Below, piece by piece: positions 3,278 to 27,065 of a stretch of DNA of 33,468 nucleotides. The notes below the pieces were generated by a model. The model was not told the DNA's origin. It saw nothing but the letters and a program-made list of their open reading frames with translations, and did no database searches. Both the position numbers and the translations under genes were made by a program. Position 1 is the stretch's first letter, and each line of letters starts with the position of its first letter. The stretch covers positions 1 through 33,468 of IMG/VR virus record IMGVR_UViG_3300028025_000390; one strand, 5' to 3'. The DNA is from a virus.

Positions 3278-3386
3278 GGGAAGCCTTACCAACGAAGAGG
3301 AAATAAAAGGTAGGTGTAATGCAATATTAGGTATTCTTAATTTAACTTATGAAGACTTAATAGAAGGGAGTAAAGATGGAGAATAA
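3168..3386 (+). CDS. Small protein overlapping the portal gene
   Basis: A 72-residue acidic protein beginning QEEFLDWLENPATKALKKAL. It starts 110 nt before the end of the portal gene in a different frame and ends 11 nt into the GroES-like gene. The start is supported by a GGGAG Shine-Dalgarno at 3154-3158. The FLDWLENPATKAL motif is familiar to me from small phage proteins in this genomic position, which suggests conservation rather than a chance frame, but no function is known to me. It is probably helical (two predicted amphipathic stretches) with a CRGSLTNEEEIKGRCNAILG segment in the middle. It may be a head-assembly accessory protein, judging only from its neighbours. Confidence 0.72.
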   Translation: MVLTQEEFLDWLENPATKALKKALTKDREYLKEMWCRGSLTNEEEIKGRCNAILGILNLTYEDLIEGSKDGE

Positions 3387-3684
3387 GAGTGGGATTCACC
3401 CTAAGGGGCACCGAGTTCTTATCTATCCAGAACCTGTAGAGAATGTCACTGCTAGTGGTATTATCATCAATACAGGAGATAATATAGAGAGAGAACGACT
3501 TGCTCAATTACGAGGCGTCATTGTAGAAATAGGTAGTACGGCTTGGCATGATCAACCAGAACCATGGGTTAAAGTAGGTGATAAAGTCATCTTCGGTAAG
3601 TACTCAGGTTTGATTTACAAGGGTGATGATGAACTAGAGTATCGTATTATTAATGACCTAGATATCGTAGCAACAGTTAGTTAA
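3376..3684 (+). CDS. GroES-like co-chaperonin (Cpn10)
   Basis: A 102-residue Cpn10-fold protein. GIHPKGHRVLIYPEPVEN at the N-terminus matches the opening strand of GroES; residues about 23-37 (TASGIIINTGDN) correspond to the mobile loop that contacts GroEL, with the hydrophobic GII tripeptide. The C-terminal half has the typical VGDKVIFGKYSG and YRIINDLDIVATV strands. In T4 (gp31) and similar phages, a phage co-chaperonin pairs with host GroEL to fold the major capsid protein. Its place between portal and scaffold fits that role. No GroEL partner is visible. The start follows a GGGAG Shine-Dalgarno (3366-3370) and overlaps the previous gene by 11 nt. Confidence 0.88.
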   Translation: MENKSGIHPKGHRVLIYPEPVENVTASGIIINTGDNIERERLAQLRGVIVEIGSTAWHDQPEPWVKVGDKVIFGKYSGLIYKGDDELEYRIINDLDIVATVS

Positions 3685-22400: not shown

Positions 22401-23051
22401 AGAACATGGTTGCAGATTGCTATGTTTGCTCCTGACTGGACTATATCTACTCTTCGTTCTTACTCTAAAGCTTTACCTAAAGATTTACTTAAACCTCAAA
22501 ACTGGCAAATTAAAGAAGGTGCTAAAGGATTATTTAATCCTAAGACATCAGGTGATTTGGCTAGACGCTATGTAGCTACTACTGGTTTAATGTGGTTAAC
22601 ACTTCTTAATGGTATTAATATGGCTACATCTGGTCATTATATGTGGGAGAATGATGATCCTACACGTATTGACTTAGGTGATGGTACTACCATGCAGGCT
22701 GCTAAACACTCTATGGAAGGTCCTCACTGGTTAATGCACCCAATTAAAACTGGGTTTAACAAGATGGGCTATGTTCCTAAAACAATTGCTGCTCTTGGTT
22801 CTCCTTATGTTAATAATCCATTAGATGTAGCTAAGACTATTGCTGAACCTTTTGTTCCATTCCAAGTAAGTGCTGCTATGCAAGCACCTGAAGGTGAGAA
22901 GATTAAACGTGGTGTTGCAAGCTTTGTTGGTTTACCTATCTATGGTCAAACAAATAAAGCTAATACTTCTCCTGAAGTTTTAATGGAACGTAAAAAAACA
23001 CGTAAAGAAACTATGAGAGCTAACAAAGAGAAGAAATTGGAGAGGATGTAA
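19419..23051 (+). CDS. Large internal virion protein with lysozyme-like domain
   Basis: A 1210-residue protein, the largest here. Residues about 33-160 resemble a muramidase of the GH24/GH104 type: FLDFTSKSEGADYNTIVGG (candidate catalytic Glu43), then STAAGRYQITKTTYDDVA and a helix with QDKIALELI. In T7 gp16 and similar proteins, such a domain opens peptidoglycan during DNA entry. Around it, SFDDLL or SFDDLM occurs three times (residues 4, 168, 184). The middle is helical; residues about 400-520 are Glu/Ala-rich; the C-terminal half contains helix-rich segments that could span the envelope (about 810-830 and 1040-1060). It overlaps the next gene by 1 nt. Confidence 0.75.
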   Translation: MALSFDDLLPSISSQPAPVTPPANTDVSQQNLTKFLDFTSKSEGADYNTIVGGKSFEDYSRHPGVVGLTTSAGPSTAAGRYQITKTTYDDVASKLGITDFSPESQDKIALELIRRKNALEDVQAGRFPEAIKKLGGTWASFSSSKYNQPKNTAEKEAKLLAGSKGALSFDDLLPATKDSKGSVSFDDLMPKEEKQNWLGTGPEMTTGEYFKSGFVGRFLSNAEHLDELDKQAQAKVLATYGKGIKENTSKYRGLVKQELDSLVNQEKVKAQEEAKANPTPSIGESFKQFGQELVDSPWKTAKSFLYELGKDPELLLLGAGGGAVEAATATGKLAKTAQAAKTIGAAAVKPAATGATLETLAETGSPAGFDPQAIANTAAMFGAFGSTMKAGGMALKAVKTPTGGKPKQPYTEAEFETELNKAEQEVRNMGGEPAPKTEAKAEAPKASEEATKILEDDPSLAEAGDVFKGDTTTEQTPVNVIHRVIADTILNNRAARILRESLERMVPNKKIRERMTMAIEGAKETDRLLTDVEKNELLYGTGKVKAGTQFVDKGLTGALEGMYRKYTQGAFKDEAERIAYKERLDKLEYTVNMLKELPSEENAIKVLKVIQDRLRVIGEQAKTEGLFDQLRQNYVTHVLDFSDSTLSKAQQTSLRDRILGGKESRFVRDFSQHRIYKTIRDLEKRLYEAGQEMGLDTRGVKVQRDIARIAEIYQQSMMNAVIQKKAINFLAKQKAPLLDGKQLELLTKDHKVAFENGYVKFTGRGSEALKDYMVHPDLVDALGYLFTEKDPGIVLKILSGVSMLSKTITTMASLFHATSLALARAGATPYGMLKEGVKGFSGTRAALETIRHDGLSKEVDAWTRSGLKFETEDIQQGILPEFAKNLDNFVTKLATSEDVRLTRRVIDPLDANVLQTLNTFTWDFMHSAGKFATAQYIFAKIKTRNPEMPDNVIRDEVSAFVNNTFGGLDWLKIADEVQNKVLKKLAMVAYSNRGRTWLQIAMFAPDWTISTLRSYSKALPKDLLKPQNWQIKEGAKGLFNPKTSGDLARRYVATTGLMWLTLLNGINMATSGHYMWENDDPTRIDLGDGTTMQAAKHSMEGPHWLMHPIKTGFNKMGYVPKTIAALGSPYVNNPLDVAKTIAEPFVPFQVSAAMQAPEGEKIKRGVASFVGLPIYGQTNKANTSPEVLMERKKTRKETMRANKEKKLERM

Positions 23052-23782
23052 TGGCTATTCAGTTACCACCAATTCCTAACAATCCAATTACAGATGCTTT
23101 TGTATGGCGTGATTGGTTCTTTAAAGTATCTCAGATCCTAGTACAGAATGCTGCTATTGCTTGGTCTAGCCTTAACTTTACTGGTTCTAATCTATTAGAC
23201 ATAGAGACAAGACAGCACAATGCTCTTCAAGATATGCAAGGTGGTTTTACTAATCAGTATTACCATCTTACTCTTGCTCAGTACAACAGTCTAGTTACTG
23301 GTCTTTCTTATGGTGCTTATCAGAACAATGCTGATCAGAACTTAGCTACTGCTAATACTCCTACTGTAGTAGTGTTTAATACTACGGACTATCAGAAGAA
23401 TATATCACGGGCTTCTAATCAACTTACTATAGCTAATGCTGGTGTTTATAATGTACAGTATAGTCTACAGTTAGCTAATACAGATGCAGCTGAACATGCT
23501 GCTACTGTTTGGCTTCGTAAGAATGGTACTGATATTGTTGGTACAGCCAGTAAGTTTGATGTACCTAAAAAACATGGTTCTAGTGATGGGTATTTAATTG
23601 CTGCTGTTAACTTCTATGTTGATGTTACTGCTGGTCAATACCTAGAACTTGTTATAGCTGCAGATCAAGTAGAGAATGGTGTTACTGATGGTATTTATAT
23701 AGAAGCTTATCCTGCACAGACTACTCCTTATGCTCATCCAAGTATTCCTAGCTCTGTTATAACTATAACCCAAGTGGCATAA
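23051..23782 (+). CDS. Fibre/tip protein with C1q-like jelly-roll
   Basis: A 243-residue protein. The N-terminal PPIPNNPITDAFVWRDWFFKVSQIL and SLNFTGSNLLDIETRQHNALQDMQGG form a known attachment block in podovirus virion proteins. The C-terminal 150 residues have the order of a C1q/TNF-type jelly roll: VVVFNTTDYQKNISRASNQLTIANAGVYNVQYSLQLANTD, HAATVWLRKNGTDI and GQYLELVIAADQ. Such trimers often form the end of short fibres. It starts at the stop of the large internal protein (TAATG). Confidence 0.65.
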   Translation: MAIQLPPIPNNPITDAFVWRDWFFKVSQILVQNAAIAWSSLNFTGSNLLDIETRQHNALQDMQGGFTNQYYHLTLAQYNSLVTGLSYGAYQNNADQNLATANTPTVVVFNTTDYQKNISRASNQLTIANAGVYNVQYSLQLANTDAAEHAATVWLRKNGTDIVGTASKFDVPKKHGSSDGYLIAAVNFYVDVTAGQYLELVIAADQVENGVTDGIYIEAYPAQTTPYAHPSIPSSVITITQVA

Positions 23783-23784
23783 CT

Positions 23785-24579
23785 ATGGACTTAAGTCAAT
23801 TAAACAAACTTAAACAGTACCTTGTTTCTAATGCTATGGCCCCTGCTGAACTAGGAGCTAAGGGTGTTTACTCTGCTTGGAAAGAATCTATATCTCCTGA
23901 GTATAGGTTTGCTCTTCAGACACTTTATGGTAATAGAAAACAACCCTTTACTAATGAGGATTTAACTGCCTCTGAATTACAGGGTTACTCTGATATTATA
24001 AAAGAGACAGAACAAAGAAGAAAAGATACTTATCCATCTTTAATAAAAGACAATGAGTTTGCTCTTGAGACTCTTAATAAAGACTTAGCAGTAAAACAAG
24101 AACAGTTTAATAAACTTCCTAAAGATAGAAAGTACTGGACAGAAGATCATTGGGCTCTTTTCCAAGAACTACAAGATATGCAACGTCAAAAAGCTACTCT
24201 TCAGAATGATTATGACATTGCTAAAAGACGGACAGAGAAGTTTAAAGAAGGTAAGGGTGACGTTCAGTATAAGGACTATCAAAAGTTTAATAACCCTACA
24301 AATGACCCAAAGCAAGTTCAAGACTCTTCTATAGCTTTAGCTAATACTATAGGTGCTTTTAATTATCAAAAGACTCCTGAAGGATATAACATAAAAGATC
24401 GTTGGGACTTTGATAATAGTGTAGATCGTCCTTACATAGATAAGTATCAACAAGGAGGATACCCTGCTGTATTTAAAGATGTTTGGAACTCAGGGGATGT
24501 TGGTACTCTTCCAGTAGGATTAGCTATTAAAAAACTAGGTAGGGATGGTAGGGACATTAATATAACTGTTCCTAAATAA
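23785..24579 (+). CDS. Hypothetical protein at the end of the late operon
   Basis: A 264-residue protein: an N-terminal helical part (SQLNKLKQYLVSNAMAPAELGAKG), a charged central coiled coil (about residues 70-160; SLIKDNEFALETLNKDLAV, KDRKYWTEDHWALFQELQDMQRQKATL), and a C-terminal globular part with FNYQKTPEGYNIKDRWDFDN and GLAIKKLGRDGRDINITV. The 'GxFnYkktpeGY.i.D.yDF' pattern is known from end-of-operon proteins of environmental phages, possibly virion-associated. No enzyme motif was seen. It is the last gene before the pqqA unit. Confidence 0.58.
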   Translation: MDLSQLNKLKQYLVSNAMAPAELGAKGVYSAWKESISPEYRFALQTLYGNRKQPFTNEDLTASELQGYSDIIKETEQRRKDTYPSLIKDNEFALETLNKDLAVKQEQFNKLPKDRKYWTEDHWALFQELQDMQRQKATLQNDYDIAKRRTEKFKEGKGDVQYKDYQKFNNPTNDPKQVQDSSIALANTIGAFNYQKTPEGYNIKDRWDFDNSVDRPYIDKYQQGGYPAVFKDVWNSGDVGTLPVGLAIKKLGRDGRDINITVPK

Positions 24580-24599: not shown

Positions 24600-24628
24600 A
24601 TTACAGAAATGTAATGTTATGGTATAAT
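24600..24628 (+). promoter_or_regulatory. Extended -10 sigma70-like promoter for pqqA
   Basis: A perfect TATAAT lies at 24623-24628, preceded by TATGG (24618-24622), the TRTGN extended -10. ATTACA (24600-24605) gives a 4/6 match to the -35 box at a 17-nt spacing. Transcription would begin near 24635, about 38 nt before the pqqA ATG. Host RNA polymerase should be able to use it, making pqqA independent of the late operon. Confidence 0.65.
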
Positions 24629-24636
24629 ATATGTAC

Positions 24637-24652
24637 AGTACAAATTCGTACT
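24637..24652. promoter_or_regulatory. Short dyad in the pqqA leader
   Basis: AGTAC (24637-24641) and GTACT (24648-24652) are inverted around a 6-nt centre, just downstream of the predicted transcription start. It might serve as an operator or form a small 5' hairpin. A 5-bp dyad can occur by chance, so this is only suggestive. Confidence 0.3.
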
Positions 24653-24672
24653 AGACATTTAGGAGATTTATC

Positions 24673-24744
24673 ATGTGGACATCACCATCAGCTACAGAAA
24701 TGCGCTTTGGCTTCGAAGTAACTATGTACGTAATGAACAAATAA
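24673..24744 (+). CDS. pqqA: PqqA, PQQ precursor peptide (phage-borne)
   Basis: A 23-residue peptide with the length and layout of bacterial PqqA. It starts MWTSP, has the core RFGFEVTMY at residues 11-19, and ends VMNK. Glu15 and Tyr19 sit in E-V-T-M-Y, the exact pair joined by the radical SAM enzyme PqqE (with PqqD as peptide chaperone); protease, PqqB and PqqC then turn the two side chains into PQQ. AGGAG (24661-24665) lies 7 nt before ATG. It is flanked by its own promoter and terminator, between the convergent late and replication modules. No pqqB-F gene is present in the window, so processing would depend on the host. The sequence resembles PqqA of proteobacteria such as methylotrophs (from memory, not a search). 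It is too short for routine ORF calling. Confidence 0.9.
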   Translation: MWTSPSATEMRFGFEVTMYVMNK

Positions 24745-24786: not shown

Positions 24787-24801
24787 GTTTTAGGGTAAAA
24801 G

Positions 24802-24830
24802 AAAGGGGACAATATTCAGTCCCCTTTTTT
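24802..24830. terminator. Strong, probably bidirectional intrinsic terminator
   Basis: AAAGGGGAC (24802-24810) and GTCCCCTTT (24819-24827) form a 9-bp stem around an 8-nt loop, ending in six T residues (24825-24830) on the + strand. On the - strand the hairpin is followed by a T-rich CCTTTCTTTT tract, so it can also stop the replication/RNR operon. It separates the convergent transcription units. Confidence 0.88.
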
Positions 24831-25038: not shown

Positions 25039-25185
25039 CTAACTCCAATTCGTTGTAATTAAAATTCTAACTATTAGTAAATCTAGTACGACGTAGGAAA
25101 ACTCTTCATCCATTTCTAAATCCTTTCCAGAAACAAATTCTATTCCTAACATCATACCTGAAATAAAGCTAAGAGTAAAGTGCAT
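25039..25185 (-). CDS. Small hydrophobic protein
   Basis: A 48-residue protein whose ATG overlaps the ribonucleotide reductase stop (TAATG), with GGTAGGT upstream. HFTLSFISGMMLGIEFV is hydrophobic and could insert in a membrane; a short acidic link (KDLEMDEEF) is followed by SYVVLDLLIVRILI. Similar little proteins ('FisG..LGiEf......yvviDLliiRi') are frequent in phage early regions. An in-frame ATG further upstream lies inside the RNR gene and is less likely. Confidence 0.6.
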   Translation of the reverse strand: MHFTLSFISGMMLGIEFVSGKDLEMDEEFSYVVLDLLIVRILITTNWS

Positions 25186-27065
25186 TAGATACCTACCACT
25201 TCGCACACACCTGCAGTGCAACTTAACTCTTGTGTTCCTGTAGTAGTATCTTCCTCTTCTTTAAACTTAGACCAATCAACAACAGGGAACTTAGCTAAGA
25301 ACTCATTGTAGAATTCCTCTGTTACTTCTTGGTATGGTGCTTGCTTATAAACGTGATCTGAGTGTGGTAAAAGAGACACACCTGAAACATCACTGAAGTT
25401 ATTATAGATCCAAGCACCTACGTCTAAGAACTCGTTATCTTTATAGTACACAGTGATTGACGGATTATGTTCTGTCCAATGCTTCTGATATACACTATAA
25501 AGTTCTAACTGTTCTAAGGCGTTTGTTTCATTTCTAGTGATACCTGATTTGCTACCCTGCTGCGGGAAACTGAAGATCGTGATATCACTCGGTTTTGTGA
25601 CGTCTGGCTCGTTTGGTATGCCTGCTTCTTTAAAGAACATTGTGAGTGGATCTTTGTTGTCCATTCGTACAGTTCTAATATAATGTTTACTGTATGCAGG
25701 ATGAATCCCACTAGAGCAGCCCACCAACTGGGAGACAGTGCCTGAAGGCTTAACAGTAGTGATAGCAACAGACTCAGGAATACCAAGTTTGGAAGCCCAT
25801 TCTTTATTGACTGCAATTGCATGTTCACGTAACTCCTTTAACCATTCAATACATTCTTGACTAGGTTTACTTAGTACAGGATGATCCATAATACCTGTCA
25901 TACTTACACCTAGTAGTCGTTCTTCTTCTTGGTTCTTTCTCCACTCAGACCTTAAGTATCTAAAGTTTGTAAGCGTGGATTGAAATGTCCCGACAATTGT
26001 TGCGACTTCGATTTTTTCTTTAAGGTCAGCAAGGGTATCGTTCTCTCGGATGACAACTTCACTGAGATTACAAACTCCTTTAGATCGGAGGATAATTTCT
26101 CCGCAAGGGTTTGTACCGTAGTCATGACCATCAACATCTCGTCGTCCGTTAGAGGCTGCTTTCTTTGTAGCTGCCACTCGATTGAATAGTCCTCGTTCAC
26201 CGCTCTTCGATTCATACAAAGTACCCCATTCCTTTAAGAAGATACCTACATCAGGTTTCTCCGTGTATGCTACCGAGTTATTGGCAAGAGCACGTTGTAC
26301 ATTGTCTTCCCACCAAGCACCGTTCTTAGCATTACGCATACGATCATCTGTTAGATTAGATAGACTGATGAGCGCACTACGACGAACACCACCAACAATA
26401 ACAATATCAGCAACCTTACATACCAAGTCATGACATTCCAATGAGTTTAGTTTTCGTCCTGCGGCTCGTTTAAAAGTATGAACCGTAAATGCGAATAAGT
26501 CTTCAAGAGGTTTTGGGCCGCTTGCTCTACCACCAAAAGTCCTGAGTCGAGCTCCTGCAGGTCTAATTCCTGAGGTATCCCATTTTGGCAGTCTTCCAGA
26601 ATATAGCAAGCTAATGAGTTCCCTATAAGCAGATGCCCAACCAATTCGTGAATCTTTAACTCTAATGGATGTGTCCGTTTCATGGAACTCCTCAGCTACA
26701 ACTGGTAGGTTGTTAGTAAACTGTCGTTCTACAGAGAAACCAACACCAGTACCACACATTAATATATACATTACTTCATCAAAAGCTTTAGGACTGTCAA
26801 TAGCTACAAAGCTACAGTTATAGCCAGCAATCTCATCACGGTCTAAAGCAGGACCTGCTGTCATAAGACAACGCATACTAGGCATTACTTTTAATTCTCG
26901 TATAGCTTTATTTACTTTCTCTTCAGGGAATACATCAAAACGATTCTTAAAGAATCCTGTGTATCTATTTACTGTTTCTTCCCAAGTCTCTCGACGGTTC
27001 TCATTAGGAACCCAGCGAGCATATCGACTTGCATGGATGAACTTTTGGTAATCAGTTAATGCCAT
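25185..27065 (-). CDS. nrdJ: Class II (B12-dependent) ribonucleoside-triphosphate reductase, monomeric
   Basis: Makes deoxyribonucleotides for phage DNA synthesis using adenosylcobalamin as radical source. Visible motifs: YNCSF (Cys84, redox-active), NPCGEI (Asn319, Cys321, Glu323, thiyl radical/catalytic), GVCNLSEV (Cys332), a later VKPSGTVSQLVGCSSGIHP substrate-binding region, and the C-terminal CTAGVC (Cys616, Cys621), the shuttle disulphide. The overall order fits the monomeric Lactobacillus-type RTPR, somewhat shorter (626 versus about 740 residues). No class I beta subunit or class III activase is present. A perfect consensus promoter lies upstream of this gene and its 58-residue partner. 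It overlaps both neighbours by 1 nt. Confidence 0.92.
   Translation of the reverse strand: MALTDYQKFIHASRYARWVPNENRRETWEETVNRYTGFFKNRFDVFPEEKVNKAIRELKVMPSMRCLMTAGPALDRDEIAGYNCSFVAIDSPKAFDEVMYILMCGTGVGFSVERQFTNNLPVVAEEFHETDTSIRVKDSRIGWASAYRELISLLYSGRLPKWDTSGIRPAGARLRTFGGRASGPKPLEDLFAFTVHTFKRAAGRKLNSLECHDLVCKVADIVIVGGVRRSALISLSNLTDDRMRNAKNGAWWEDNVQRALANNSVAYTEKPDVGIFLKEWGTLYESKSGERGLFNRVAATKKAASNGRRDVDGHDYGTNPCGEIILRSKGVCNLSEVVIRENDTLADLKEKIEVATIVGTFQSTLTNFRYLRSEWRKNQEEERLLGVSMTGIMDHPVLSKPSQECIEWLKELREHAIAVNKEWASKLGIPESVAITTVKPSGTVSQLVGCSSGIHPAYSKHYIRTVRMDNKDPLTMFFKEAGIPNEPDVTKPSDITIFSFPQQGSKSGITRNETNALEQLELYSVYQKHWTEHNPSITVYYKDNEFLDVGAWIYNNFSDVSGVSLLPHSDHVYKQAPYQEVTEEFYNEFLAKFPVVDWSKFKEEEDTTTGTQELSCTAGVCEVVGI

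Follow-up and report, generated by a model that had tools for sequence, protein, structure and literature searches.

PqqA is the precursor peptide of the cofactor PQQ, and PqqE joins its Glu15 to its Tyr19. In the Methylophilaceae, PqqA (PF08042, TIGR02107) is encoded by stand-alone genes with a terminator that occur in multiple copies apart from pqqBCDE, and 3–12 pqqA genes with one pqqBCDE have been noted in these bacteria (PMC4109929). A single viral pqqA was reported from in silico work in 2020, in the Lake Baikal virus VP_266, a predicted Methylophilaceae virus in which the gene is accompanied by methanol dehydrogenase (PMC7678222), and a reservoir survey of 2026 includes viral pqqA in its list (PMC13188868). 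Group II phages, which combine a MEP401-type replication module with other morphogenesis genes, mostly have predicted OM43 hosts (PMC10580990). Auxiliary metabolic genes such as psbA are likewise host-derived and thought to aid a host pathway during infection, but psbA-type genes encode enzymes, whereas pqqA encodes a peptide substrate that is consumed.

We analysed a 33,468-nucleotide viral contig (IMG/VR record IMGVR_UViG_3300028025_000390; hereafter the window), which is undoubtedly a tailed-phage fragment, with PHROG matches for terminase, portal, major head protein, head closure, endolysin, ribonucleotide reductase (RNR), DNA polymerase and helicase. The phage collection held no near DNA relative. 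A GroES-like co-chaperonin is encoded at 3376–3684 (PHROG 3188). Positions 24673–24744 (+) translate into MWTSPSATEMRFGFEVTMYVMNK followed by a stop, which a first-pass annotation had claimed to be PqqA. The peptide scores above the curated cut-offs of both Pfam PF08042 (38.8 bits, cut-off 21.1, E 8.8e-10) and the NCBIfam equivalog TIGR02107 (34 bits, cut-off 20, E 1.8e-8), and E15 and Y19, the ExxxY pair for the PqqE cross-link, stand exactly where they had been placed; by these models and residues it is a PqqA precursor peptide. A six-frame PqqA HMM search of the entire record returned this gene as its single match (E 3.1e-10). PHROGs holds no family for the peptide and the PDB no match, and the locus has no Rfam match and no tRNA. 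No pqqB–E gene was seen by inspection among the window reading frames, in agreement with the earlier claim that only the substrate is carried. The gene thus resembles Methylophilaceae pqqA in length, sequence, Glu15/Tyr19 and stand-alone organization with a terminator, and differs in residing in a phage without other pqq genes. It shares with the VP_266 gene a predicted Methylophilaceae virus and the same proposed role, but is an orphan with its own regulatory signals that recurs in unrelated and cultured phages.

Table 1 Features of the pqqA locus in the window.
Feature	Position	Strand	Basis
Two genes 5′ of pqqA that close the rightward structural module	23051–23782, 23785–24579	+	Reading-frame list
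Promoter-like site: ATTACA, 17-nt spacer, TATAAT at 24623–24628, extended −10 (TGGTATAAT)	24600–24628	+	10/12 matches, TG present
Putative leader hairpin AGTAC-AAATTC-GTACT, 5′ of the Shine-Dalgarno	24637–24652	+	Fold −7.1 kcal/mol, z −2.2
Shine-Dalgarno AGGAG, 7 nt 5′ of ATG	24661–24665	+	Direct sequence reading
pqqA, 23 codons and stop, Glu15/Tyr19 present	24673–24744	+	Translation, Pfam and NCBIfam models, six-frame HMM search
Predicted intrinsic terminator, hairpin then T-run	24799–24830	+	Fold −17.7 kcal/mol, z −5.3, 0/200 shuffles equally stable
Downstream convergent neighbour, RNR, end of the leftward replication module	25185–27065	−	PHROG 367, E 7.8e-182

The gene has the gap between the last genes of the rightward structural module (23051–24579) and the leftward RNR gene (25185–27065) to itself (Table 1). 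Relatives of the window phage were found through the portal gene. In four of them (G002, G009, G019 and G037) pqqA follows the homologue of the gene at 23051–23782, and an RNR gene lies 3′ of pqqA in the three whose sequence continues. The slot is also present in G021, a close relative, where a lysozyme-like frame (named by eye) takes the place of pqqA. In this group the cassette is thus conserved yet dispensable. The 50.8-kb relative G037 carries two pqqA genes in separate places (L410:4545–4613 and L411:4381–4449), each with a TTATGGTATAAT promoter-like site.

Promoter-like sites of the quality seen in the window are not rarer in shuffled sequence, so the promoter call rests on the conservation of TTATGGTATAAT 5′ of pqqA in the four pqqA-bearing relatives. 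The terminator core shows compensated pair changes (GGGGAC/GTCCCC in the window, GGGCAC/GTGCCC in G002 and GGCCAC/GTGGCC in G037). The relatives have leader stems of differing sequence, and a stem of at least 8 occurs in 25% of viral leaders against 9% expected, a modest enrichment that offers weak evidence for a 5′ leader hairpin as an element of viral pqqA. Together, the predicted promoter and covarying terminator indicate that the window pqqA is likely a free-standing unit.

The host type was approached through the peptide and through the replication genes. When bacterial genomes were scanned for the core ATEMRFGFEVTMY, the matches listed came from Methylophilaceae genera or from bins labelled Betaproteobacteria, Nitrosomonadales or proteobacterium, groups within which the Methylophilaceae fall. 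The window and the OM43 phage MEP402 share 15 ORFs, with strong matches for helicase, polymerase, exonuclease and RNR and weak or no matches for structural genes. Judged from these shared ORFs, the window has the gene content of the group II Zobellviridae-like OM43 phages, namely a MEP401-type replication module joined to a different morphogenesis module. Because of the ATEMRFGFEVTMY matches and the MEP402-type replication module, the host is very probably a Methylophilaceae methylotroph. We found pqqA in all 120 host-family genomes sampled (1–12 copies each), and PqqE exceeded the cut-off in 17 of the 18 such genomes checked, the exception being a small partial genome. OM43 LSUCC0665 has PqqB, C, D and E, with a pqqBCDE operon that lacks pqqA and three pqqA genes near 52 and 875 kb, all outside that operon. 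Such hosts provide PqqA in trans, so a phage copy would fit directly into the pathway. Demand for PQQ in these hosts is plausible, as xoxF ranks first in abundance among the transcripts of OM43 NB0046 (PMC5120137).

Viral and bacterial genomes were scanned for pqqA with degenerate DNA patterns, and the counts are lower bounds. With a general PqqA pattern, at least 120 IMG/VR contigs matched, and all 120 matches listed encode PqqA peptides of 23–25 aa. Other PqqA types formed a minority of the listed matches, and three of those checked (L030, L031 and L034) come from contigs that also encode phage head, portal or terminase proteins. Among annotated phage genomes, tblastn recovered intact pqqA in Venkman, MEP301, P19250A, MEP401, MEP402, four Melnitz records and a Manatee Spring contig. 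The cultured carriers are six Methylophilaceae phages (OM43/LD28 clades) of several unrelated lineages: MEP402 and P19250A share no ORFs, and the window and Venkman share 2. The 18 phage records that have a related portal (from Alcaligenes, Roseobacter, Pelagibacter, Caulobacter and other hosts) are all missing from the tblastn pqqA matches, so the gene tracks host type and not the lineage of the window phage. HIM624-A, phiMB624-A, MEP431–434, EXVC038S, MG-MTP1 and RSA-MFP1 gave no tblastn match, and either the gene or the record may be missing. With 69 bases, pqqA is too short to resolve the number of separate acquisitions. None of the phage records opened annotates pqqA, including that of MEP402 (pqqA at 43050–43118), and in Melnitz-1 and the Manatee Spring contig an antisense hypothetical frame is placed over it; viral pqqA may have been overlooked because 23-codon genes go uncalled. 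Two candidates were rejected. The match in Escherichia phage ERS-1 is at chance level (E 5), and the record filed as 'Acinetobacter phage MD-2021a' (CAKLQF020000010.1, L006) carries a full pqqABCDE set amid housekeeping genes and resembles the chromosome of a bacterium.

To compare selection across copies, a second IMG/VR pattern was used in which positions E15, T17 and Y19 were left free; it matched at least 120 loci, which overlap the first viral set. E15, T17, Y19 and the 23-residue length were kept in all 120 viral loci listed from this pattern. Over codons 15–22, pN/pS was 0.079 in viruses (among the matches listed) and 0.100 in hosts, and synonymous divergence of viral pqqA was high (pS 0.66) with the peptide fixed. 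Viral peptides fell within host PqqA diversity. Eight of the 120 viral copies are DNA-identical to a fetched host copy, which, together with the absence of the gene from G021, is what would be expected of a neutral passenger picked up from the host by chance and without a role in infection. We consider this highly improbable, since the peptide is fixed despite the synonymous divergence, the gene recurs in unrelated phages, and relatives with differing flanks retain the slot, the promoter and the covarying terminator. By sequence, host metabolic origin in a genuine virus and selection on the viral copies place pqqA among the probable phage auxiliary metabolic genes.

The same data bear on whether the phage peptide serves as a decoy that occupies PqqD/PqqE and thereby lowers or redirects host PQQ synthesis, as the first-pass annotation had also suggested. 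PqqE did not exceed the cut-off in any of the 47 pqqA-bearing virus records, apart from the window, that were searched whole, although one (G078) gave a single weak radical-SAM match, and PqqB, C, D and E were absent beside pqqA at all 151 viral loci searched, again apart from the window. An identical search found PqqB–E beside pqqA at 17–21 of 120 host loci. By these searches and the inspection of the window, no complete pqqABCDE locus is present in the pqqA-bearing viruses. That viruses carry the substrate alone suits a decoy, and a peptide can compete through mass action. A decoy could dispense with the reactive residues, however, and all 120 viral peptides listed retain E15, T17 and Y19 and sit within host diversity; a large virus with both pqqA and a PQQ-dependent methanol dehydrogenase, described below, also points to PQQ demand. 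The decoy reading is for these reasons disfavoured and appears improbable.

Regulatory signals resembling those of the window are widespread among the viral copies. Of 116 viral copies, 47 have a terminator on their 3′ side (1.2 expected), and most viral copies have an AGG/GGA-type Shine-Dalgarno (among the matches listed). A consensus TATAAT often lies ~36–60 nt 5′ of the viral start, whereas this box is depleted in host copies, which means that viruses have not merely taken over the promoter style of the host. Among 72 viral copies with scored neighbours, 31 are antisense to both and 14 are at convergent junctions (45/72 combined), indicating that many viral pqqA genes cannot rely on the promoter of a neighbour.

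Taken together, the most probable reading, which we hold with some confidence, is that the window carries a functional, host-derived pqqA of a Methylophilaceae phage that is transcribed alone and feeds the host PQQ pathway, raising or sustaining PQQ and methanol oxidation. Transcribed by itself from its own promoter, the gene would supply a peptide that host PqqD binds and in which PqqE joins Glu15 to Tyr19; a host protease, PqqB and PqqC would then complete the cofactor. The phage would add a dose of a peptide consumed one per PQQ and leave catalysis to the host enzymes. Since one PqqA can give no more than one PQQ, whereas the enzymes turn over, the peptide would be the part worth carrying. 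A raised or sustained PQQ supply would keep methanol dehydrogenase supplied and methanol oxidation going during infection, to the presumed benefit of the phage. Of the three roles first proposed, this boost fits best, given that the cross-linked residues are strictly conserved, that the host is a probable methylotroph and that multicopy host PqqA acts in trans. Against it count the several pqqA copies already present in hosts and the close relative G021, which does without the gene. In Acetobacter, overexpression of pqqAB increased PQQ by 29% and that of the entire cluster eightfold (PMC7936290), so enzymes can limit PQQ too and precursor limitation is not established.

The third proposed role is a timing variant of the first and inseparable from it on sequence evidence: host pqqA transcripts would disappear once infection has begun, leaving the phage copy merely to restore normal PQQ until lysis. 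Host fit is the same for both, and a predicted promoter and terminator independent of the neighbours would suit such a replacement, which we nonetheless regard as unlikely because PQQ in existing dehydrogenase may outlast infection and the two pqqA copies in G037 suggest that dose matters. Of the first-pass annotation, the identity and the substrate-only cargo stood, the boost fits best and the decoy is disfavoured; its remark that no viral pqqA was known is outdated by the 2020 description.

What is new is the breadth of pqqA in methylotroph phages, viral pqqA itself being already known. PQQ is nowhere named in the publications that describe Venkman, MEP301 and MEP401/402, so that the pqqA present in MEP402 goes unmentioned in PMC10580990, and the Melnitz paper names PQQ solely as a medium supplement. 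No report of pqqA in cultured methylotroph phages was found, with most subscription papers outside the search, and by open literature searches the recurrence of the gene as an orphan, self-transcribed cassette across these phages appears to be unreported. This distribution suggests that methylotroph phages commonly feed the PQQ pathway during infection. Phages that infect PQQ-dependent methylotrophs may commonly be marked by orphan pqqA, repeatedly acquired by unrelated lineages and supplying substrate, not enzyme, and exchange with hosts may feed the unusual pqqA multiplicity of the Methylophilaceae; we give this wider proposal an even chance. The gene would then be a probable metabolic lever of phages on abundant aquatic methanol consumers that standard annotation misses, and the prediction is that cofactor supply is worth buying in infection. 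Phage–host pairs already exist in Venkman and Melnitz on H5P1 and in MEP401/402 on FZCC0133. Strong purifying selection on a gene of 23 codons also shows that searches for viral metabolic genes miss what lies below ~30 codons, and the pqqA type could help to tell which host a methylotroph phage infects.

One large contig, IMGVR_UViG_3300025120_009955 (72.4 kb; L415:5990–10784 and L418:1888–2790), a virus by IMG/VR classification, carries pqqA with a quinoprotein-associated SoxYZ-like carrier nearby, a PQQ-dependent methanol/ethanol-family dehydrogenase (624 aa) and a formate dehydrogenase alpha subunit (946 aa), enzymes of two methanol oxidation steps. A SoxYZ-like gene also lies near the tandem pqqA of OM43 LSUCC0665 (L413). 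The same contig encodes a CsgG curli-transport homologue (L415:1422–3007) and, by eye, curlin-like repeat proteins.
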